A stretch of 64,000 nucleotides of DNA from Mesostigma viride (Eukaryota; Streptophyta; Mesostigmatophyceae; Mesostigmatales; Mesostigmataceae). The DNA is taken from assembly GCA_009746045.1 (NCBI GenBank), contig RPFO01000175.1, positions 2,601,634 to 2,665,633 on the forward strand, written 5' to 3'. Below are positions 2-35,358 of this stretch, piece by piece; position 1 is the first letter of the stretch; each line of letters opens with the position of its first letter. The translations under genes were made by a program, and so were the position numbers. Under the pieces are notes generated by a model, which was not told where the DNA came from, made no database searches, and was given only the letters and a program-made list of their open reading frames with translations.

Positions 2-7131
<7,130 letters not shown>

Positions 7132-9019: not shown

Positions 9020-10817
9020 AATCGGTGTTCTCTGAACGTAGTTTCTTTATAACAGATGAGAATGAACGCCGCTATGTGAGTGGTACTACGGGACGGTGGG
9101 CCTTGGGCTGGACCGGTTCCATGAGTTAGAATTAGTTGGCCAGTTTTGTATGGCCATTTCTAGTTCGTTAAGTTAAGTAGCAATTAAGTTACTGTTGCTG
9201 ACGGCTCATGAGGCGAGCCCGGGCTACGCCGCCCTAAAGTGCCATTTGCACGATGTTCTAGGTCTCTTTTTCTTGTAATCGGATGTATGGGGTATGGGTA
9301 TGGCGGATTACAAGAAATTTAATGCTGCCCTAATCGCGTCAGCCTTTTGGCTGGCGGTGGCCGATTAGAGATGGCGCGTGACTGACATAGCTTGAACAGT
9401 CACGTGACTGTGAAAAAGAAATTAAAATTACCCTCGTCGGTTTTCTCCCCGCAGCTGGGTTCTTGGCCGACGAGAGACTATAAAATACTTCGCGTTTGCC
9501 TGCGCGTGGCACCTGTACGGAACTCTGAAACCATGAGTAAGATTTCCGTGCCACGCTGCAGTGCCTACCGCTTTGCTGCGGAATGTCGCAGCAGGGTTGC
9601 AGTTCCTGACTGCTGACTGCCGAAGGGAGGGTGGTCGGGTTACTTTTAGTGGGCATTGTGATGGACGACAAGTCTGTCGGCCCTCGCGTAAGTAGAAAAA
9701 TATTTACCAGCATCCGCTCTTATGGGTGCGTGAGGTCTCGGGAATGTGGTGGGGACGAATTCCGGAATTATGCAATATTTCGATTCAGACCGAGACTTAA
9801 GGGGCCAGTTTAACAGACGGACCTGGGCCGGGCAGGACCAAATATTTTGGCCGGCCCAGTTGCGCTTGCGCTTTATCGGCCGCTGGGGTGTGTGATGAGA
9901 GCCTGCTCATCAACTAAAACCTGAAATATGGAAAGTTACTCCCCCAGGTGACAACGTTGACAGTAATCGAGATATGGTGGCATCGGGTGACGTCCTACAA
10001 GTTGTCGTCACGTTAGGGCGGCACTGGCCTTTGAGGGAGGTCCGTGATCGTTAAACGAGGCGTCTTCTTCCTTGTCTTTGCGTGCACATTCAACACCCTC
10101 TTTTACTGGCCGAGGGAGGAAGGCTGGGGGGGCCCTGCGAAGGGTTATCGTGCATGAGGCTCGCTACAGCCGCCGGCGATTGTAATGGTCGTGACCGTTG
10201 CGGCAGGGCAGCCTCGAGAGCCACTGAGCGAAAGTGGTTGGCGGAGCTTTGGAGATAAAGCACCAGGAAAGGGGGGTTGGGTAACGAGAACTACAATCAA
10301 TCATGAAATGGGTGCAGCGTGGCAGGCTCACTCATGGGTTCTGTAATTGCCCACTTATTGTTTTAATCAAATGTTGGTGGATTGGTAATAGTGGGAATAG
10401 AATCGGTGTTCTCTGAACGTAGTTTCTTTATAACAGATGAGAATGAACGCCGCTATGTGAGTGGTACTACGGGACGGTGGGCCTTGGGCTGGACCGGTTC
10501 CATGAGTTAGAATTAGTTGGCCAGTTTTGTATGGCCATTTCTAGTTCGTTAAGTTAAGTAGCAATTAAGTTACTGTTGCTGACGGCTCATGAGGCGAGCC
10601 CGGGCTACGCCGCCCTAAAGTGCCATTTGCACGATGTTCTAGGTCTCTTTTTCTTGTCCCGCCCCCCCTCCCTCTTCTTGTGTTTGTTTCTAGGGTAACG
10701 AGAACTACAATCAATCATGAAATGGGTGCAGCGTGGCAGGCTCACTCATGGGTTCTGTAATTGCCCACTTATTGTTTTAATCAAATGTTGGTGGATTGGT
10801 AATAGTGGGAATAGAAT
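9020..10817. repeat. Partial tandem duplication A-x-B / A'-y-B' of unknown sequence
   Basis: Segment A (9020-9276, 257 bp) recurs as A' at 10401-10657, and segment B (10279-10403, 125 bp) recurs as B' at 10693-10817. No difference was seen by eye. The copies differ only in the middle: about 1,002 bp (9277-10278) in the first and 35 bp (10658-10692, C-rich) in the second. B and A' overlap by AAT. The block is bounded on both sides by (TTAA)n tracts. No convincing ORF, TIR or RT motif was found. It could be a dimer insertion of an unknown element or a local tandem duplication with a deletion. Confidence 0.75.
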
Positions 10818-15421: not shown

Positions 15422-15736
15422 TGATGCCGAGGTCAACTACCCTACTTCAGGCCGCTTCAAGCTGCTCGGCAGTTGGCTTCCCGACTGCGAGGACGACATG
15501 ACGACACGGATCGGCATGGCGTGGGCGCACCTCCATGACCACCGCCGCTGCATGGTGGAGCAACCCCGCCCTACCCCGGATCGTCAAGCGTGACCTCTTC
15601 AAGGTCGTCATTCTGACGATCCTGACCTATACGGCGCCGAGACGTGGACACTGACGCAGGAGCTGGAGCAACGACTTGACGGCGCCGTCACCAAGATGCT
15701 GCGCAAGGCTCTTAACATCCCCTTTGGTTTGCACAT
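15421..15736 (+). pseudogene. LINE-A ORF2 fragment, left half of a copy split by a 9-kb transposon
   Basis: The sequence matches 34517-34823 of the LINE-A copy (GDDMTTRIGMAWAHLHDHRR-type region) with frameshifts. It stops at TTTGCACAT, where the 9-kb transposon begins. The right half resumes at 24766. Confidence 0.9.
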
Positions 15737-15768
15737 CCCTAAGCACGTCTGGATTTGTACTAGAACAC
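15737..15768 (+). repeat. Left 32-bp terminal inverted repeat
   Basis: It is identical to the reverse complement of 24734-24765. A looser similarity continues inward (ACTACAAATT beside both TIRs). Confidence 0.95.
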
Positions 15769-15852
15769 TACTACAAATTGAGATTTTTCAAACTTTGTTA
15801 TTTAGGGCCTCTCGTAAGTCCAAAGCATGTAGGTTATTGTCCCAACATGTTG

Positions 15853-16560
15853 TGACACCGCGACACCGTGACACCGTGACACCGTGACACCGTGACACCA
15901 TAACGCTAGTATTTTACGATTTTGTATGGTGTCACAAGGTTATGTGGCGCCCATGGGGTTGCAACAATGATATTACATTGCCCAGAAGCACTGATTAACA
16001 TGAGGTGACATTGTGACACCGTGACACCGTGACACCGTGACACAATGGCACCATAACGCTAGTATTTTACGATTTTGTATGGTGTCACAAGGTAATGTGG
16101 CGCCCATGGGGTTGCAACAATGATATTACATTGCCCAGAAGCACTGATTAACATGAGGTGACATTGTGACACCGTGACACCGTGACACCGTGACACCGTG
16201 ACACGATGGCACCATAACGCTAGTATTTTACGATTTTGTATGGTGTCACAAGGTAATGTGGCGCCCATGGGGTTGCAACAATGATATTACATTGCCCAGA
16301 AGCACTGATTAACATGAGGTGACATTGTGACACCGTGACACCGTGACACCGTGACACCGTGACACTGTGACACCGTGACACCGTGACACGATGGCACCAT
16401 AACGCTAGTATTTTACGATTTTGTATGGTGTCACAAGGTAATGTGGCGCCCATGGGGTTGCAACAATGATATTACATTGCCCAGAAGCACTGATTAACAT
16501 GAGGTGACATTGTGACACCGTGACATCGTGACATTGTGACACCGTGACAGCATGATAGTG
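15853..16560. repeat. Left subterminal array: GTGACACC octamers inside a 153-185 bp higher-order repeat
   Basis: Four copies of a module (TAACGCTAGTATTTTACGAT at 15901, 16054, 16215 and 16400) alternate with runs of the octamer GTGACACC. Successive periods are 153, 161 and 185 bp, differing by 8 and 24, so length changes are whole octamers. Position next to the TIR and the inverted counterpart on the right suggest transposase binding sites (inference). Confidence 0.9.
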
Positions 16561-17134
16561 ACAATATGACACAATAGCACTAGCATTTCATGATTTTGTT
16601 GTTTAGTGCCACAAAGTATTCACGCAACATTAATGTATTATGCAACCATGTATAAATAAAAGAAAATTCATGAATATGATGGATGACCAATAATCCCTAT
16701 TACATGGCCTAGCAAACTTGCATCTGCCAACTGTGTCTCTCTGCCTCTTTAATATCAAATGCAAGATAAAATAATGTATATTAGCTCAAACTTACCTGAC
16801 AATGATTTGCATACAGCTTTCTTTAATGCAGAATCTGGTGCCAAGCAAATGCCGTATCAAAACCATACATGCCCAATCTAATATGAACCATAATAATCGT
16901 CTACATCTTGCGAGTAGGGTGGCCTTTTCCGCGGTGGAGCCTGGGCATGTGGTTGTGGGGCCGGCCGGACGTGGGCCTTGTAGGCCCACGTCCCTTGCTC
17001 ATCAAAATCGCTATGACCCATGAAATGAGAATCCCTGGCTGCATAACCTCCTCCCTCATCATGATGTTGCCAGTCTTGCTCCCCGGCGGCCTTGGGGATT
17101 TGGGGCCTCGGCTTTGTCTTCCTTGGAGATCTCC

Positions 17135-19881
17135 TTACAGGGGGGCTGCGGCATAACGGTAAGTGCCGTCATTGTAATGCTGCACGGGCTCAGGGTTCTC
17201 AACGTAGGTGGTTTGTTGCAATGTGCCGCGACCTCGAGGCTGATGTGGATCAGCTGCCGACCCTTTGCCAGGCTGTGGATCGTACATGCCGGCATGGTAT
17301 AAATAAGCATTGGCCGCTTGCCTGCCAGCGGCAGTAGGCTGGGCATGCATTCCTTGGTCGTACGGCGCGTACACACCGTGCTCGCCGTACGGTTCCCCCT
17401 CCCGATGCAGCTGCCTCGGCCCATCCATTGCGACTGCGCGCGCGCGTGGCTCTTGTTGACGGTGTGCTGGTTGCAGTCCTGTCACTTGGCCATGGGCCGC
17501 GCTGAAGCTTTCGCGTTGCCCCAACGCGGCAGGCGCAGCGGGCCGGCGAAGCTCCGTGCCAACGCCAGTGCTGGAGCTGGGTGCAGCACTTGTTGGGGTG
17601 GATGGCATTCTTCGTTGGTTCTCCAAAGCATTGACCCTCTCGGTCAGGGCCTTAACCTGTTCTTGCAATTTCACGTTTGCAGCGTTCTCGGGGGGCGCAG
17701 CCACTGGCTTCGCACGCGCCGGCGCTGCCAATGACGTCTGGCACTTTGAAATTTTCGCGCTCAGCTCGCTGATTTGCGCTGGCAGATTGGGCGGCGCCTT
17801 TTTCCGGCCTTGCTTGGGTAGGAACCCCACCCATGCTTGAAGGTCCGTGAGGGCCGCCTGCGTTGCCTGCATCGCTTGATTCAACGGCTCCAGCCACTCT
17901 GCCGGGGGGGCAGTTGGCACCACATTCTCGGATATTGCTGCCTTTGTCCCCCCAGATGACAATGACTTCCCGCCTGGATATGCAATTTGGCGCGGGCGCA
18001 TGCTCCGATCGCTCGCCCCCAGTTGCCGCTGCGAGACTTGCTTCTTGTCCTTCTTGACGGGTGACACGTGTTCCGGCTCGCTGCCATCTTCGCCCGCCCC
18101 TCCTCCAATGTCATGCTCCTCCTCCTCCTCTCCCTCCAAGTCATAGCAGACATCATCCTCGCCCTCGCTTTCATCTTCACCGTCCTCGTTGGGTGCAGCA
18201 GGCGGGAGCAGAGCGAGCACCTGAAATTGCGCACATGCATGCATGAACAAAGGTTGACATCCACAATTCACCCAAGGTTAATGAAAATAATAAATTATGT
18301 TTTACTTATAAATACAAGTAACGGGTAATCTTCTAGTACGATGTAGATCATACTAATTTTAATTCTATACGTGCCAATGCGTATGGGTTGCACAAAAGAC
18401 ATGTCAGTCTAGCATAGGGGAATACCAACAATGCAAGATATTTATAATTTACTTACGTGATAGCGCGGTCCGCCCTTGGCAGTCGTTTTAATAGCGCCTT
18501 GGTGCGCGACTCCGGGCGGGTAAACGCTGACGTGATGTCCGCCACTGCATCCGCCAAGGTAGCACTTGATGTGTCGTGCAAGTCGGCGGTGGCGATAGAG
18601 TCAACCATTAACTGGAATGGTCGGCACCACGCCACCCGGATTTCACCGGATGCGAACGAGGTAACCTTCCATACTCCATCCTCATCGCTGTAAATGGGAC
18701 GCACCATCGCCATCCAACATGCGTGATCACGACTGTCGCTCGGTCCCCTCACACAAGCGAGTCCGACGATGAGAAGCCGCACAGTGGTTTGGCCCGTGGC
18801 ATTGGCGTGTAGGTCACGCATGATGATGGCCTCCTCTGCATGCGTGCAGATGTCACCGATGGAGAATGTCGTCAGATTCTTTGTGCTACCACCGCTGGCC
18901 GCTTTGCACGAAACGTGCAACTGAGGCCAGTCAGCCTTGCTGTTTAACTCGGAAAACCTGCTAACAAGCAGCTTGTGGAAATCCTGAGCCGGTGTGATGT
19001 TGAGCTCTGGGGTGGTCATTAACTGCTCCCCATTGACGAGCTTGGTAGTGCTCGGAAGGCCTTTGCCCAGGTCCAGCATCCGAAGAACAGCTGGCTTGGA
19101 GGAAGTGCCACCCTTCACGGTCACGCTCGAGGGGCCGGCTGCCTTCAGGTGCACCCCCAGAAATCCTAGGTATTTCACCAGGCACGTCTGCGGCCCTCGA
19201 TAGGTGTGTGCCTGTTGCAATTAAGAACGGCAATCATTCAAGCAATGTCACATTATAAAATGCTAGACGTGCCCCTGAGAAGCATAGAAATATCGAATTG
19301 TAATACTCACAATGAGATAGAAGCATGCATATAAATATCGGGGGTAGCATGGCTAATCATGAAAGCACATCGGCAAATATTGTCCTTGTTTTGAGCCGCC
19401 CACGAACAAAAAAAGGGTTCGGCATGCTGCCGGCACTAACTGTCAGAACCAAGCAAGCCTGCGCTCATGTGTGACTGAAAGCTAGCCCTGACAGCACTCG
19501 TAGAAAGGGAGCGATATTGCTGTGCTCCTTTATCACAAACCCTGGCAGCAAACGCCGACCCCCCCCCCTGTCGTAATTTACCTGTGATTTCCCTTGAGAG
19601 GCCGTCTTGCCTGTTCGGTCGTTTTCACCATCTTCAGAATCATCAGAGGCATCCGTTCTAGCGTGTCTATTAACTTCATTGACAGCACCCTTGACGTACA
19701 CGTGCGATTTCTTATTCCCCCGCCCTTCATCACCTACGGGTGTCCCCGCATCAACTGCGCTCTCAGTCTCCTCCCCCGTTGGCCGTGCTACGCCCGTTCC
19801 ATCGTCATGCTCCGCATTTTCGGCATCCACGCCATTGTTCCCAATACCTGCCGCCGGCTGCTGCTGCTCGCCGCTAGCCAT
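17135..19881 (-). CDS. Accessory gene of the 9-kb transposon: unknown acidic, coiled-coil protein
   Basis: Minus-strand exons: 19582..19881 (ATG start, Asp/Glu/Ser-rich, ending KSQ|gtaaat) and 18457..19211 (acceptor gcaacag, phase 0; 251 codons of unrecognised globular sequence, donor AC|gtaagt). The third block is about 17135..18234 (acceptor atttcag), with a strongly acidic start (EDGEDESEGEDD), coiled-coil heptads (VKLQEQVKALTERVNALENQ) and a Pro/Gln/Tyr-rich tail. The last junction does not keep frame: exon 2 ends in phase 2 while the acidic frame needs phase 0. Either a small exon is missed, or block 3 is a separate gene with ATG at about 18244, or the gene is damaged. The 3' end after 17135 is also unsure (a GT donor overlaps the stop). 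No known domain was recognised. Position suggests a second transposition protein. Confidence 0.55.
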
Positions 19882-19970
19882 TAATAGCTATCCTGACCAG
19901 AATGGCCGATGAATGGATAATTTCCTCGGGGATTGAAAGGAAATACCTGCTGCACACCTTGTGACACCGA

Positions 19971-20255
19971 TGTCTCAACATGTTTGTAGTTGGTTTGTAG
20001 TTGGTGTCTCGGTGTCTCAGAAACTCGTGGTCCGCATTGAGTGGGTGTCACGGTGTCACGACATCTGATTGGCCCGGTTCAGATTCGCCCCAAATTAAAA
20101 AAAAAAAAAAAACGAATTAAAAAAAAATTAAAAAAAAACGAATCTGAACCGGGCCAATCAGATGTCGTGACACCGTGACACCCACTCAATGCGGACCACG
20201 AGTTTCTGAGACACCGAGACACCAACTACAAACCAACTACAAACATGTTGAGACA
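19971..20255. promoter_or_regulatory. Perfect 117-bp inverted repeat between divergent transposon genes
   Basis: Arms 19971-20087 and 20139-20255 are exact reverse complements, separated by a 51-bp A-rich spacer. The hairpin lies between the start codons at 19881 (-) and 20499 (+), so it occupies the presumed bidirectional promoter. Both arms carry octamers GTGACACC and GAGACACC, like the subterminal arrays, plus duplicated CTACAAAC. Likely roles (inference) are an operator or transposase-binding site, or a replication or excision structure. Confidence 0.85.
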
Positions 20256-20498
20256 CCGTGACACCGTGCGCTTTCACCCCGAATTCACGAGAGCGGCAGC
20301 GATGGTGATCGCTGCCAAATGAGGTAACATGGGCTAAACAACTCGGGCAGACCGGGCTGGCGTGACATCCCGGTCTGCCATGTTTTATTCCCCCCCACAC
20401 ATGGCGTGGGGATCTACGTTTGCCATCTGCCAACGTAGAAATAGATGGGGAGGGGGGGGGACAAATGATGTTTGCAACATTGCCCAGTTGACATAGCC

Positions 20499-23400
20499 AT
20501 GGCGAGACCCGGCGTTTTCATGGAGCCCAGTGCGGGGGCGCTGGGTTGGCAGGTTTTGGGAATGTTCTTCTTGCTATTACTCCTGGGCGTCGTCGTGTTC
20601 AATATGATGGCGAGGCGCGGGGTCCGGTTATCTGCAGCCGCCGTGTTGGCGAAATGCACCCAGGATTCGTCCTTGGCTGCGGCACTTTGCAGGGACTGGG
20701 ACTGTGGTTGTGGCCGCCATTGTTTGAGAAGCGTGCATTTCGAGGAGCTCAGGACGATGAGGACCGACATGTGGTCTAAGAAGCCTGCGGATCGGAAAGA
20801 GTTTATAAAGAACCAGCTTTTTCAGGCCGGCCAGCGAGAAACTGAAATCCCGGGGAGCTTGCGTCACAAACGCAGTCGAGACGATGACTTCCTGTTCGCA
20901 GTGGATGGCTACGTTACTTACCCGGCTGACAGGCATCGGCCAGAGTCTACAGCCCCTTTTCGGCATCGCATGTGTGAAGCTGCTTTCCGCCGTGCTCTGT
21001 ATATCAACGAGAATGTTTGGCACTCGGCTGTGAAGGAAACTACCCGCCCTCCCCCTTCGCCTGGCGATCTTGATTTGGAGTCTGGCTTGGGTAGCACTGC
21101 TGGACGGCGCGTTAGGGGAGTCCGGTCAATGTCTGCCAAGATTGGGGAGGCCAAGGCGCTTTGTGAGCTGTGGATTCGGCGTTGGCTAAACCCAGCAATT
21201 GAGAAAGATCCCCGGGACGGCGTCAGCATCATTGAGCAACCGTGCAAGAAGACTTTATACTCGGAGTACACCATGGAGCAGCAAGATTATGGAGCCCCTG
21301 TAGTTAGCATTTCGCTTTTCAGGACAATATTTGAAGCAGTGAGAGTAAACATGGGTGTCCGGATTGAGCGTTATCGCACAAAAATTATGGGTGAGTGCTC
21401 CCGCTGCCGGAAGTTAAAGGATGCCATTTTGAGATACCGGACCACCAACCGGGCCATGTGGGAGGCCTGCAAAGAGAAATTAGCTGATCACACCGACTTC
21501 TTTAATGGGGAACGGATGGCTTACCTGCAACGAAGGTTTGAGGGCGCCAAGGGGTATTTTGTTTCCATAGTCATGGATGGTTTGGCAAAGATGAAAACAG
21601 CAGTTCCAACCAGGGGCAGCGCCTCAAAAGATTGGCTTGCCAGCCGCAAGCTACATATACCCTACCAGCTCGTTTGCTCGATTTTGCACGGAGTTAGGTC
21701 GTATTTTTGGGTGATTATGCCTTGGGTAGCTAATTCTGAGGTTTCTGGTAACTCAGGGCGTGTCACTGCGACGGTGCTCACACACCAATTGTTGGAAGTG
21801 GTGGTTGAGCGACCATGGGAAAGGTCCCACAATCCTGAGATCCGCGAGTTTGGCCTTGCCCCCACCCTCGTCCTTCAACTGGATGGGGGTGGGGACAACA
21901 TGAATCACGAGCTATTGGGCTTCCTAGCGGTTCTCATCGTCCGCCGTCTTTTCTCTCGCATCAGGGTGTGCCGCCTGCCCCCAGGGCACACGCATAATGA
22001 TGCTGATCAGAGATTCGGTTGGTTCATTCGGTGGTACAATGGGATGAAGAACCGGGTGTCAGATCTTCCACCGGTGCTTATGATGACGTTTCAAGACGTG
22101 TTGCAGGGCCTGACGCGTGCCTTTGCACATTTCTACGAGGAAGGCCCTTCCGGGAGCATGGCGACAATAAACCCACTGCCGCCATCTGCCAAGGTTGGTT
22201 TTCTTTATAATAATTTGCATGGTACATGATTGCATTATGAGTGTGTTGGTAGGTCGGGCTTAATTGTAATATGCAAAAGTTAAATTGTAACCACCGCGCG
22301 TACTCGCCTCTTAATGCCACTATTTGTTTTGTGTGTGTTGCTTGCAGCGCATCAACGCAGCGCTGGACTTCACCACATGGCTTCGTGGCTGCATGGACCC
22401 AGACCTTGGGCGTTGGGTCAAGTCTGCTGATGTTGTCATGGACGCGTCAACCAACCAACCTGTCGTGGAGCAGCGGCTGGTCAGCAAGATATTTGATATC
22501 GAGCTATTCGGCCACCGTGATGAACGTGCGCTAGTGGACGTTGGTGACGACTGCTTTTTGCGCTACCGTCTTGCCACGGCAGAGGCATTGGTAGATGTGC
22601 CCGCCAATTGCTGGAGGCCTCTCGGACCAAATGAGGAGCCGTGCGACATGGTTAGCGTCCAATTCAAGCGCGTGAGTGATGGCAAGGAGCTCCGCGGCGC
22701 GCTAGTCATGGAGGCGACCAAGGCGCCCAAGGGCAGCCCAGGTCTTGCGGCGTTCGCCGATTGGGATGGCGCTCGCGCAATCCGCTCCCATTGCAAGAAA
22801 ATCAGCCGACAGTTTCCAGAGATCATGACGGCGGCAAAGCAAGCAGAGCTCAACGAGGAGATCCGCGGCTTCCCTGCTGAGCCGGAGCAAGTGGAAGTGG
22901 AAGATGCATCGGTGTTTGACGTCATGATCCAGAAGCTGACGGAGTGCAGGGAGCAGCAAAAGGACAAGCCCCTCCCTTTTTGCCTCCACAGTGCAGGCGA
23001 TCAGGCGGTGATGCGGGCTACCCGTGCTTTGGAAGCGCCGCTGCACCCAATCGTCAGCCATGCAGGCGACCGCCGCCACCAGGTGCAAGCTGCCGTTCAG
23101 CGGGCACGACGCGCAGCTGAGCAACCGCCTGCCGCACCTGCCACGCTTGCCGCGCCTGCAGGTGCCTCGACTTCTGTTGCAGATGCTAGCGGTGCTGCAC
23201 AGACCATTGCGACTGCGGATCGTGTTTTTACTGTCAATCCCGGCATCATCTCCCGCGGAGACTTCCTAATTATCAAGAGACCTGCGGTGACGTGCGGGGA
23301 GGGCATGCCGTGGCCAGAGGAGCTCTTGGTGAAAGTTACGGATGCATCTGCAATTCGTTCATGCGGGACTCTCACTGTTTCCGTGTTTTACTCACCTTCA

Positions 23401-23991
23401 TGGGAAGGCCAGTTTAGCAAGCTGGCGCTCGCAGGCGGTGGGCCGGGCCTGACGGTGTCGGCATCGGAAATCATTGTTCAACACTGGACAGTGGGCGCGT
23501 CAGGGCAGGCTGTGCACATCCCGTCGCTGACATCCGCACGTAAGCTATCTCGTGCAACCCTCCAAGCCTTAGATGACCATCCACAAGTGCACTTTGTCGG
23601 TTTCAAAACGCAGCCAGCTGCCGCAGCAACGTCAAAAGCTGCATGTGCGGCATACTTTGCTGAGCACGGGCTGCAAGGGCTAAAAGGGAGAAGGCTGTGC
23701 GCCTTGTGGGGTTCGGCCAAGGCCCGCTTTCACGGGTGGGTCGTAGAAGTAGAGGAAAGTGACGGGGCTGTAAAAATCGAGACGGTGTGGTCTGACGGCA
23801 AGGGGTACACATACACCACATTAGAGGAAGTTTACAAGTTCATCTGTGGGTGCCCGCATGCAACTCATGCCTTTGGCCGCGCAAAGTTTTTTCCGGATGA
23901 CGCGGGGGGTGACGTGGCAACGGGGCTGGATGAGCTCCATGATGCTTCTAGTGACAGTAGTGATGATGATGACGAGGAGGCATGGGATTGA
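20499..23991 (+). CDS. DUF7869-like DDE transposase candidate of the 9-kb element
   Basis: Two exons, 20499..22193 and 22348..23991, are joined in phase 0 (AAG|gttggt...cttgcag|CGC), giving 1,112 aa. The ATG at 20499 has a good context (GCCATGG). A hydrophobic segment (MFFLLLLLGVVVF) lies near residues 25-45 and a Cys-rich stretch (CRDWDCGCGRHC) follows. C300xxC303 (CSRC) may bind zinc. The central domain has the hallmarks of DUF7869 proteins: VMDGLAKMKT (Asp360), LQLDGGGDNMNHE (Asp462) and PPGHTHNDADQRF (His497-Asp503). This spacing of acids fits an RNase H-fold DDE nuclease (inference). The C-terminal exon holds an Ala/Pro linker, a possible Tudor/SH3-like segment (CALWGSAKARFHGW) and an acidic tail. 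A chlorophyte-type TGTAA signal lies at 24041. No frameshift or stop interrupts it, so the element may be active. Confidence 0.8.
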
Positions 23992-24431
23992 TGGGAATAT
24001 GTGAAAGCCTTGGTAGTGCTTTAAAGCATGCTAGTGATGTTGTAAGAATGGAGCCCAGCATGCCATCGTCCACCATGTGTTATTGTGTTATGTGTGGGCA
24101 TTTTAGTGCTAAATGTTGTACATGGCGGCAATGTCTTCAAGTGATTTAATGACAAAGTGATTTTGATGGTTGCTTGCATGCATATTAAGTGAGACAACTA
24201 TTCCTGGACGCATGGCGTGCCAACATATATAAGTTGTTACCAGATATTAATCACATGCCCTATTGAAGCGACGTTGGACCGCATATACTTGTCATGACCC
24301 GGCAAGGTACCTACACGCACAACAAGAATACATCAACATGAGACGATATATGGTGAGATGACCGAGATGTATGGAGAAATGAATGTCTCTACTATAGGAT
24401 TATTATGAAGGTGTATACGTGGTATTTGCGG

Positions 24432-24645
24432 TGTCACGGTGTCACGGTGTCACGGTGTCACGGTGTCACGGTGTCACGGTGTCACGGTGTCACGGTGTCA
24501 CGGTGTCAGAAGCATAGGTAAAACTTGCAATGACCCATTGAATACATCATCCCCATTAATAATCACTGCATACATGCAAAGATGTGTGTTTATATGCATT
24601 TTGAGGTGTCACGGTGTCACGGTGTCACGATGTCACGGTGTCACG
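24432..24645. repeat. Right subterminal GGTGTCAC octamer arrays
   Basis: About nine tandem GGTGTCAC units at 24432-24507 and about five at 24605-24645. They are the exact complement of the left GTGACACC array, so the arrays are themselves in inverted orientation relative to the TIRs. Between 23992 and 24431 only the 3' UTR and AT-rich DNA are seen. Confidence 0.9.
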
Positions 24646-24733
24646 GGTCCTATGAACTTCCCCTTCCTCAGAGACTTTAGTTGAAACTTTAAATTCAATA
24701 AAATACAACTTTTCAAAATGAACTACAAATTGC

Positions 24734-24765
24734 GTGTTCTAGTACAAATCCAGACGTGCTTAGGG
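24734..24765 (-). repeat. Right 32-bp terminal inverted repeat
   Basis: Reverse complement of 15737-15768 with no mismatch. The CAT duplication follows directly. Confidence 0.95.
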
Positions 24766-24768
24766 CAT

Positions 24769-32562: not shown

Positions 32563-35358
32563 ATTAATCCAATGCCAACACTGAACTTTTTGCTGATTTG
32601 CTTACGACATGCGATTTGGTCACTGCCAGCACCCGCTTTCCACATAGTCCAGATGCTTTGGTCACACACACCTCGCCAACTGGCACTGAACGCTGCATTG
32701 ACTATGTTGTAATGCGCAAGCGTCATCAAGGATCTGTACTAGCTGCTCGCTCGCATGTGATCCCCCTGGTGCGCTCCGATCATCGCATCGTCACCGCCCG
32801 CATCCGCCTGCGATTCCCCTCGCCCTTTCGTAAGCACGTGGCACCACCTGATTTGCGCACACTTCAGTTGCTTGAGAAATCTGACGACGCTCTGGAGAAC
32901 TTCCCTGAAAAACGCGCCCACAAGCGCGCGGCAGAGGCGTTCGTCGACGCGCTAGACATCCCGGCCAGCCACGCCCAGCTGTTCGCTGCCGGCCCGGCAT
33001 CGGCCCTTCGGCACCTCGCTGACAAGCTGCTCGCGGCCGGGGCCCTGCTGCCCCCCCGCCGCCCGCCCCGCTTCGATCACCAGCCTGCACCGGCTCCCCG
33101 CCGTCATCCAGGCCCGGCAAGCCCTGCACGACAACAGCGACCCCGCCCGCTACGCCCGCCTCAAAGCCGATTACCACTCGGCCATCCGGCAGGCGACCAA
33201 GGAGCAGGAGGACCTTCATGTCCGCGAGTACTTCGCCCACCTCAAGGACCAGCACGGCAAGTACGCCTGGACCCGCCTGCGTCACGCCCAACGGCCCGCC
33301 GGCGGCGCGCAGCCGGCGCCGCGGACGCTCTCTGGCTCACCGCAGCAGCAGCTCGACCAGTGGTATTCCTCCCAGTCCCGGCTGCTCGGCGCCCCCCCGC
33401 CGCCTCCGCCGCTTGGCCCTCTGGCGGCCGCACGCCTGGCAGTAGCGCCTGCGGACGTCCCTGCGCCGTCCACGCCGCCCGCCGCTGAGCAGGACTACAC
33501 GTACCCAGCCCTGACGGAACCCCTGGCCGACCCCAACCAGCTCCCCGGCCGTTCACCGAGCTCGAGCTGAGCACCGCCGCCAAGCAACTCCGCTTCTATG
33601 CCGCCGTTGGCCCTGACCAGCTCCCCGCCCCGGTGATTAAGCTGACGGCGGCGGCGCTCACGGGGTTCCTGCTTGACGTCTGCAACCGGATCCTGCTTGC
33701 CGACGCGCCGCCGATTCCTGAGTGGCAGCACAGCTACCGTATTATGCTGTACAAAAACAAAGGTTCCCCTGACGACCCCGCCAACTACAGAGGAGTCTGC
33801 ATCCAGAGCGCCGCACTCAAGTTGTTCATGCGCATGATCCTCAACCGCCTTCGTTCTGCTCTCGACTGTCACCTTGGGGAAAGTCAAATGGGCTTCCGTC
33901 CTGGGCGCAACACCGTCATGGCCATCTTCGTCGCGCGTCGCCTCTTCGAGGAAATCGCTCTCCTGCAACCTGGTGAGTTTCCCGCCATATCCTGATCTTC
34001 GTCGACTTTATCAAGGCTTTTGATTCTGTCCTCTGGGACGCTCTATGGGCTGTAATTGCTCGCGCTCGCGTCCCCACTCCCCTGATTACCGTCATCCGCA
34101 CGCTGTATGAGGGGTCGACCACTTCGGTGTGCACTCAACGGCATTACCCCGCCATGCCCACTGCAGACCGGCGTCTGGCAGGGTTGCGTCCTGTCGCCGG
34201 CCGTACCTGTTTATTATTGTAGTGGATTATGTTATGCGCCAGGCACGTGCTCGCTTTGCTAGCATTGCAGGCCGTGCCCCTGGCCGAGCGATCACGAACG
34301 AGCTTGGGGAAGGGGGGCGGACTGACAAGCAGAATTTACTAGCTGACCTCATTTATGCCGACGACATCACGCTCATCGAGAAGCCGGAGTCTGCCCAACT
34401 TTGGCTGGACTGCCTGGCGCTCGAGGCTCGGGCGGTTGGTCTAGAAATCAGCCCCAAAACGGAGGCCCTGGCCCTCGGCATGGCAGGGCCCCCATCCACA
34501 CTCCGCCTCCTAGACGATGCCGAGGTCAACTACCCTCCTTCAGGCCGCTTCAAGCTGCTCGGCAGTTGGCTTCCCGACTGCGAGGACGACATGACGACAC
34601 GGATCGGCATGGCGTGGGCGCACCTCCATGACCACCGCCGCTGGTGGAGCAACCCCGCCCTACCCCGGATCGTCAAGCGTGACCTCTTCAAGGTCGTCAT
34701 TCTGACGATCCTGACCTACGGCGCCGAGACGTGGGCACTGACGCAGGAGCTGGAGCAACGACGCGACGGCGCCGTCACCAAGATGCTGCGCAAGGCCCTT
34801 AACATCCCCTTTGGTTTGCACATTAGTAATGAGGATTTGTACGCTGATTTGCCCTATGTTTCCCACATTATTAGGCACAGGCGCCTGGGCCTAGCCGGGC
34901 ACCTGGCCCGCACAGATCAGGTAGATACCTCAGATAGACTAGCTGGCACCAAGCCCGCCCAGCCTGGGCGATATGTCCTCACCTGGCGTGCCCCCGGCCG
35001 CGCGCGGCAGGGCCGCCACCCGTGGACATTTCGTGATAGACTCGGCATGGACATGTGCTACACTAGACGTGACGGGCTCACCCCCGGGCAGCCTCCTGGT
35101 TTGTCTGTAATATGGAGGCAGATGGTGCGCAAGGATAGATGGCAAGTAGCGATGAAGGAGACCACCCCCAATTAAGCTTGTGGGGGCTCCGCGTGTGACC
35201 AAGTATGGCATTCATAGCGATTCGGGCCGTGGTGCCCACACCCCTGTAACTAGGACCTAGATAGCTTATACCATCCATTCCATCCCATGTTCCCCTCCCA
35301 CTGAGGACTTATGCTCACGTGACGCAGTCACGTGTCTATTAATTAGTTAAATTAATTA
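32563..35358 (+). mobile_element. LINE-A copy (endonuclease C terminus, RT, tail) with 11-bp TSD
   Basis: The insertion is flanked by ATGTACAGTGC at 32552-32562 and 35359-35369. In order it contains the end of an APE endonuclease (CIDYVVMRKRHQ, PLVRSDHRIVTARI), RT fingers (YRIMLYKNKGSPDDPANYRG), motif A (FVDFIKAFDSV at about 34005), motif C (LIYADDITL at about 34350), a C-terminal region (RRLGLAGHLARTD), a 3' UTR with hairpin CACGTGACGCAGTCACGTG and a (TTAA)n tail. The 5' end is truncated inside the endonuclease. The shared CAT site at 34821 is the empty site for the 9-kb transposon. Confidence 0.88.
32598..35175 (+). pseudogene. LINE-A ORF2 (endonuclease/reverse transcriptase), frameshifted
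   Basis: The reading frame shifts at least four times: about 33050 in a C-rich run, about 33570 before PFTELELSTAAKQL, about 33990 before motif A, and about 34190 near motif B. The final frame runs 34129-35175 and ends KETTPN. Catalytic YADD is intact. This architecture (APE endonuclease, RT, HLARTD-type C terminus) is that of APE-type non-LTR elements; the clade was not determined. Confidence 0.8.

Follow-up and report, generated by a model that had tools for sequence, protein, structure and literature searches.

A DUF7869 protein as the probable transposase of DNA transposons with terminal inverted repeats and 3-bp target site duplications in Mesostigma viride

In a 64,000-nucleotide stretch of the Mesostigma viride genome (contig RPFO01000175.1, positions 2,601,634 to 2,665,633; hereafter the window, meaning the whole stretch of DNA that was analysed), positions 15737-24765 form a complete, 9,029-bp copy of a DNA transposon that encodes a protein with the DUF7869 domain. 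We conclude, with a probability of roughly 0.87, that this protein is the transposase of a young, autonomous, eukaryotic-type DNA transposon with terminal inverted repeats (TIRs), with a proposed catalytic site of three aspartates (DDD) and a second gene (gene 2) that is most likely accessory. At the level of sequence, both the element and the fact that it has moved in the past are secure. The movement of this transposon family very probably depends on DUF7869 as its enzyme, because its gene is the only one found in all three branches that we examined. These branches belong to a lineage of TIR transposons with 3-bp target site duplications that is apparently undescribed.

The borders of the window copy can be drawn to the base. 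The 32 bases from 15737, which begin CCCTAAG, are the reverse complement of the final 32 bases to 24765, with a mismatch at base 33, and the sequence around 34821 in the same window equals the two flanks of the element with one CAT. The joined flanks with one CAT align to 34513-35321 at 96.2% identity over 823 bp, and by this comparison the TIRs, the CAT duplication and the empty site were all correctly placed in the first-pass annotation. The features at the borders are as follows.

15734..15736, no strand: left target site duplication CAT, from flank comparison
15737..15768, plus strand: left TIR, 32 bp, perfect
24734..24765, minus strand: right TIR, 32 bp, perfect
24766..24768, no strand: right target site duplication CAT, from flank comparison
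34821..34823, no strand: unoccupied site, a single CAT in a paralogous copy of the repeat

Together with the other copies described below, the family thus has the properties of class II TIR transposons, namely paired terminal inverted repeats, a duplication of constant length at differing sites, and an unoccupied target.

The protein of 1,112 amino acids that had been read from the window is real, but it is not uninterrupted. Read through unspliced, exon 1 runs into a stop ending at 22229, and the full protein requires that a predicted 154-bp GT-AG intron be spliced out. The frames of S6, a relative of about 45% identity from elsewhere in the genome, break at the same position. The gene is laid out as follows.

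20499..22193, plus strand: exon 1 of the DUF7869 gene, 565 amino acids, containing D360, D462, D501 and D503
21576..21578, plus strand: codon of D360, the proposed first catalytic aspartate
21882..21884, plus strand: codon of D462, the proposed second catalytic aspartate
21999..22007, plus strand: codons of D501-A502-D503, the end of GHTHxDxD, with D503 (or D501) the proposed third catalytic acid
22194..22347, plus strand: putative intron, 154 bp, GT-AG, at the same place in S6
22348..23991, plus strand: exon 2, 547 amino acids and stop

A hidden Markov model search bore out the domain assignment: the Pfam model DUF7869 (PF25273) matches the exon-1 frame with E = 4e-12 and 46.6 bits, against a curated cut-off of 26. 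The window protein is thus a member of this family with a conserved core, in which the motifs VMDG, LQLD and PPGHTHNDAD, already recognized as hallmarks, start at residues 358, 459 and 494. It is also the case, as had been supposed, that the Pfam entry attaches no function to the domain.

Conservation was assessed in an alignment of eight sequences, in which the window protein was joined by six environmental proteins and a contig of a metagenome-assembled genome (MAG); all eight are matched by the DUF7869 model. Among the residues invariant in this alignment are C300, C303, H331, D360, D462, N467, N469, G496, H497, T498, H499, D501, D503, F506 and G507, and the acidic positions and GHTH are also kept in S6 and in a more distant family, S1. 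In DD(D/E) transposases with an RNase H fold, the second and third acidic residues lie some 34-45 residues apart. In the window protein, 38 residues separate D462 from D501 and 40 separate it from D503, and in all nine sequences compared there are 38-41 intervening residues between the second and third acidic positions (40-41 for D462-D503). With three invariant acidic residues at this spacing, D360, D462 and D501/D503 would fit a DDD nuclease, and the position of D503 after the last hydrophobic run makes it the favoured candidate for the third catalytic acid. Between the window and S6, exon 1 has a nonsynonymous divergence (dN) of 0.54 and a saturated synonymous divergence (dS) of 3.1, which suggests purifying selection.

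The 440-Mb assembly (2,243 contigs) holds 71 forward and 79 reverse matches to the 32-bp TIR at up to 3 mismatches, and the reversed-pattern control gave 0 and 0. Identical 3-bp flanks were found in 19 of 20 paired copies of the window family (the window copy, L021 and L023-L040), with about 1/64 per copy expected by chance, and the duplicated triplets vary (CAT, GGG, ATA, AAG, TCG, CCG and TGG, among others); the further copies with 3-bp duplications anticipated in the first-pass annotation therefore exist. Another copy, L022, can be aligned as far as element position 9024, but it was left out of the paired set because the sequence taken for it showed no right TIR. Both L021 and L022 are of the full type: they carry the DUF7869 gene and are 99.3% and 98.9% identical in DNA to the window copy, which, together with the perfect TIRs of the latter, argues for a recent spread of the family. 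The exon-1 protein is encoded at 100% identity in five places in the genome, three of them within paired TIRs (at most 1 mismatch) and one with a left TIR only; the fifth has no TIR close by among the matches listed.

Eighteen shorter copies (6.7-8.1 kb) keep both ends. In tblastn searches (E 1e-5) their match to the DUF7869 protein is limited to residues 1-120, with residues 121-1112 unmatched in all 18, as is the upstream frame of gene 2. Judged by this structure, they are non-autonomous deletion derivatives. The deletion points are common to the four copies that were compared in layout with the window element, and 3-bp duplications are found at 17 of the 18, which argues that these copies spread after gene loss, presumably moved in trans. 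In the 7-kb copy L023, low-complexity filler at about 3400-4600, with frames of THPP and SLPP-like repeats, replaces the lost genes.

DUF7869 has at least 150 matches in the genome, which fall into several bands by score, and in two further families the ends could be defined. The S1 protein has 24% amino acid identity to the window protein, and its 11.0-kb element has a perfect 29-bp TIR, GGGTGGTTTTACCGGATTAGGATACATTT (starting GGGTGGTTTTACC), with 258 and 269 genome matches at up to 2 mismatches and 0 in the control; S2 proved to be the same family. The duplications read from the flanks of two S1 copies compared base by base are ATT and GTT, and 3-bp duplications were present in 6 of 10 further copies, giving 8/12 in all. 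The S6 protein, at 44-46% identity, belongs to elements whose TIR of at least 31 bp, CCCTACCAGCCATTTAGAATGTACTCCAGCA (starting CCCTACCAGCC), has 113 and 151 matches to its first 25 bases when 2 mismatches are allowed, against 0 in the control, and all 10 copies have duplications of 3 bp, with no match extending further. Pooled over the three families, exact 3-bp duplications were found in 37 of the 42 paired copies examined.

We also tallied the flanks of DUF7869 genes, counting perfect TIR matches only and assigning most genes to S1 or S6 by score band, not by sequence. Among the matches listed, 11 of 13 S6-band genes have perfect TIRs on both sides and two on one side. On the contigs covered by the TIR list, the 15 S1-band genes divide into eight with TIRs on both sides, five with one and two with none. 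These counts largely answer the objection, foreseen in the first-pass annotation, that DUF7869 genes elsewhere in the genome might lack flanking TIRs. A further family, S4 (L092, L093), ends in GGGGATTCATAGGTGTTTGCTCAATTTCAC and contains tandem units of 173 bp in long arrays. There are 141 and 137 matches to its end pattern, mostly with no nearby partner among the matches listed, and its other end probably differs in sequence; S4 and the remaining DUF7869 subfamilies were left out of the duplication counts. Finally, 26 places among the matches listed carry a frame of 397-398 amino acids (for example C2:5885318-5886364), all 88% identical to window residues 196-544 and with two score values, which suggests that an element whose DUF7869 frame is shortened has multiplied separately in a recent burst.

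A second gene of unknown kind had also been reported in the window element, and it is present as two minus-strand frames without a Pfam match over the cut-off, Myb/SANT included. Its upstream frame is homologous to S6 gene 2 (28% identity over 201 amino acids, E 2e-16). No similarity was detectable between gene 2 of the window family and that of S1. In S1 the frame to the left of the proposed transposase gene is also on the minus strand, and its product has pairs of cysteines and a stretch rich in glutamine. Inside each end of the window element are arrays of an 8-bp motif, GTGACACC, in inverted orientation.

15844..16549, plus strand: left subterminal array, motif GTGACACC in tandem units of 153-185 bp
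17135..18244, minus strand: downstream open frame of gene 2, 369 amino acids, with an acidic start and, by eye, a coiled-coil-like middle; counterpart in S6 by place, the sequence match being not significant
18453..19079, minus strand: upstream open frame of gene 2, 208 amino acids
24429..24646, minus strand: right subterminal arrays, motif GTGACACC inverted

The motif occurs 20 times forward and 4 times reversed in the left 864 bases (15737-16600), 13 times reversed and 0 times forward in the right 465 bases (24301-24765), and 4 and 2 times in the interior between these end regions; in the window outside the element it has 0 occurrences. Inverted arrays of this kind lead one to expect an accessory DNA-binding protein, for which gene 2 is the candidate, and most likely gene 2 encodes a coiled-coil-forming protein that reads them.

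The evidence inclines us to regard DUF7869 elements as a new superfamily, one that would be eukaryotic, of the DDD type, with 3-bp duplications, two opposed genes, a length of about 9-11 kb and a GHTHxDxD signature. A less likely reading is that DUF7869 is indeed a transposase but belongs, as a very divergent member, to a superfamily already recognized, probably either the CACTA/EnSpm-Mirage-Chapaev-Transib (CMCT) group or the Zator side of IS630-Tc1-mariner. Maize En/Spm elements are large two-gene elements with inverted subterminal arrays and internally deleted copies, and the window element resembles them in its size and two genes, its inverted arrays of a short motif and its deleted non-autonomous copies. 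According to PMC12730594 and PMC10045372, 3-bp duplications are reported for EnSpm and Zator. However, the termini begin CCCTAAG in the window family and CCCTACC and GGGTGG in the others, not CACTA, the third residue is a D within GHTHxDxD, and no Pfam transposase model is matched (Repbase being outside this comparison). Furthermore, the CMCT signature, as given in PMC12730594, has C(2)C and H(3-4)H between the second and last catalytic residues, whereas the invariant C-x2-C of DUF7869 lies before the first D, with none, and no C(2)C...H(3-4)H, between D462 and D503. The first-pass annotation had held that the element fits none of CACTA, hAT, piggyBac and mariner. For the last three this stands, since their duplications (8 bp in hAT, 4-bp TTAA in piggyBac, TA in Tc1-mariner) differ from the varied 3 bp found here; for CACTA/EnSpm it stands with regard to the termini, but the 3-bp length does fit.

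On the Zator side, besides the shared 3-bp duplications, there are short look-alike motifs: LDGGGDN...LPPGHTHNDADQRFG in the window protein resembles DGGGSNG...FPPGTSKWNKIEHRLFS of ISAzo13 (seen in L094). Against this, DUF7869 has GHTHxDxD in contrast to TSKWNKIEH, and DDE_Tnp_ISAZ013 (PF07592) is absent from the Pfam hits of DUF7869 proteins. The ISAzo13 family was found in 33 of 395 genomes, and of 10 loci taken, the 8 that gave a protein with the signature were used for a profile. Kinship finds no support in the resulting hhalign probabilities, 0.46 for the whole protein and 2.33 for the core, both from shallow alignments and with the catalytic motifs out of register. The core-only profile scored 21.9, slightly more than the 20.8 reached by the highest of 40 column shuffles, and a remote ISAzo13/Zator link may exist. 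PIF/Harbinger (PHIS) elements share 3-bp duplications and two genes, but the targets here (CAT, GGG, AAG and CCG, among others) are not TNA/TWA, no Pfam model is matched and gene 2 lacks a Myb/SANT match. The Kyakuja-Dileera-Zisupton and Plavaka groups are likewise eukaryotic TIR elements able to carry extra genes, but according to PMC12730594 Zisupton has 8-bp duplications and Plavaka its own termini; the duplications here are of 3 bp, again with no Pfam match. The proposal of a distinct superfamily thus gains from the lack of a Pfam transposase match and from the negative ISAzo13/Zator comparison, and is plausible rather than proven, a very distant link being possible.

That DUF7869 is instead an accessory or passenger protein, with the transposase supplied by gene 2 or by another element, is improbable. 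In its favour, conservation between the window family and S6 extends to gene 2, whose upstream frame is lost in the shortened copies just as most of DUF7869 is. However, of the proteins encoded, DUF7869 alone was detected in each of the three families (window, S1 and S6), gene 2 being homologous in two of them and without detectable similarity in S1, and it is DUF7869 in which the invariant acidic residues sit; gene 2 has no Pfam match over the cut-off. The proposal that DUF7869 proteins are transposases, made from the window alone, is therefore strongly supported. The idea that the borders are a product of misassembly, or inverted repeats that arose by chance about an ordinary host gene, is refuted by the empty control searches and by the exact duplications in the pooled copies of the three families.

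Several points nevertheless weigh against DUF7869 as the transposase of a TIR transposon. The empty site at 34821 belongs to a paralogous repeat rather than having been left by excision, and matching 3-bp flanks are missing from one window-family copy of 20 (L038) and from four S1 copies of 12. The two S1-band genes noted above have no perfect listed TIR nearby, and S4 has only one end (the right) identified. Gene 2 was lost along with DUF7869 in the short copies, and deletions alone do not identify the enzyme. The eight family members have no Pfam nuclease or transposase match at E up to 10, a range in which the HMMER filters drop most matches above 0.1. Lastly, all evidence at the level of the element comes from one genome.

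If DUF7869 is the transposase, the protein would bind and pair both TIR ends in a transpososome, cut the ends and join them across a 3-bp stagger in the target DNA, after which host gap repair would produce the 3-bp duplication. For catalysis, D360, D462 and D503 (or D501) in GHTHxDxD would make up a DDD site of the RNase-H-like kind, and the protein of the oppositely transcribed gene 2 would read the inverted GTGACACC arrays inside each end. Of this picture, we infer that the element is active at present, that the fold is that of RNase H, which residues are catalytic, that movement is by cut-and-paste and not replicative, and what gene 2 does.

When protein databases were searched, the spliced window protein gave no match at E 1e-3, the S1 protein gave a single match, and a three-sequence alignment gave six proteins (the S1 match among them), all with DUF7869. 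The only PDB sequence match of the S1 protein (E 0.62) was taken as chance. No relatives were found in viral contigs, and bacterial and archaeal genomes yielded one, on contig L049 of an uncultured Bacteroidetes MAG. This DUF7869-like protein (1927-3684, in two open frames) has the D, D and GHTHEDID motifs; no convincing TIR pair was found among 18 inverted repeats, and the contig is probably eukaryotic contamination of the Bacteroidetes bin. We found no paper naming DUF7869 or PF25273 in a search mostly without subscription journals and preprints, and a Repbase entry under another name is possible; among the titles and abstract openings listed on new or 3-bp-duplication superfamilies and related terms, none names such an element.

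These results propose a testable function for a domain of unknown function that is abundant in this genome, and for an assay they provide the precise termini, a rule for the target site, a candidate active site and ready non-autonomous substrates. Should the lineage be separate, it would add one superfamily to the two dozen into which the DNA transposons of eukaryotes are divided (PMC12730594 gives 24 for Repbase). DUF7869 proteins annotated as unknown elsewhere would then be transposases or domesticated relatives, and repeat libraries without the lineage would probably let DUF7869 genes pass as host genes.

Two other open frames were observed in the window, both on the plus strand. At 2940-5171 lies a frame of 743 amino acids in which an exostosin GT47 domain (E 1.4e-23) was detected alongside EGF-like matches; it is probably a host gene. 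The frame of 818 amino acids at 46005-48461 matches reverse transcriptase weakly (E 1e-6; at 29.1 bits, slightly short of the cut-off of 29.6), and is likely a LINE-type (long interspersed nuclear element) retroelement.

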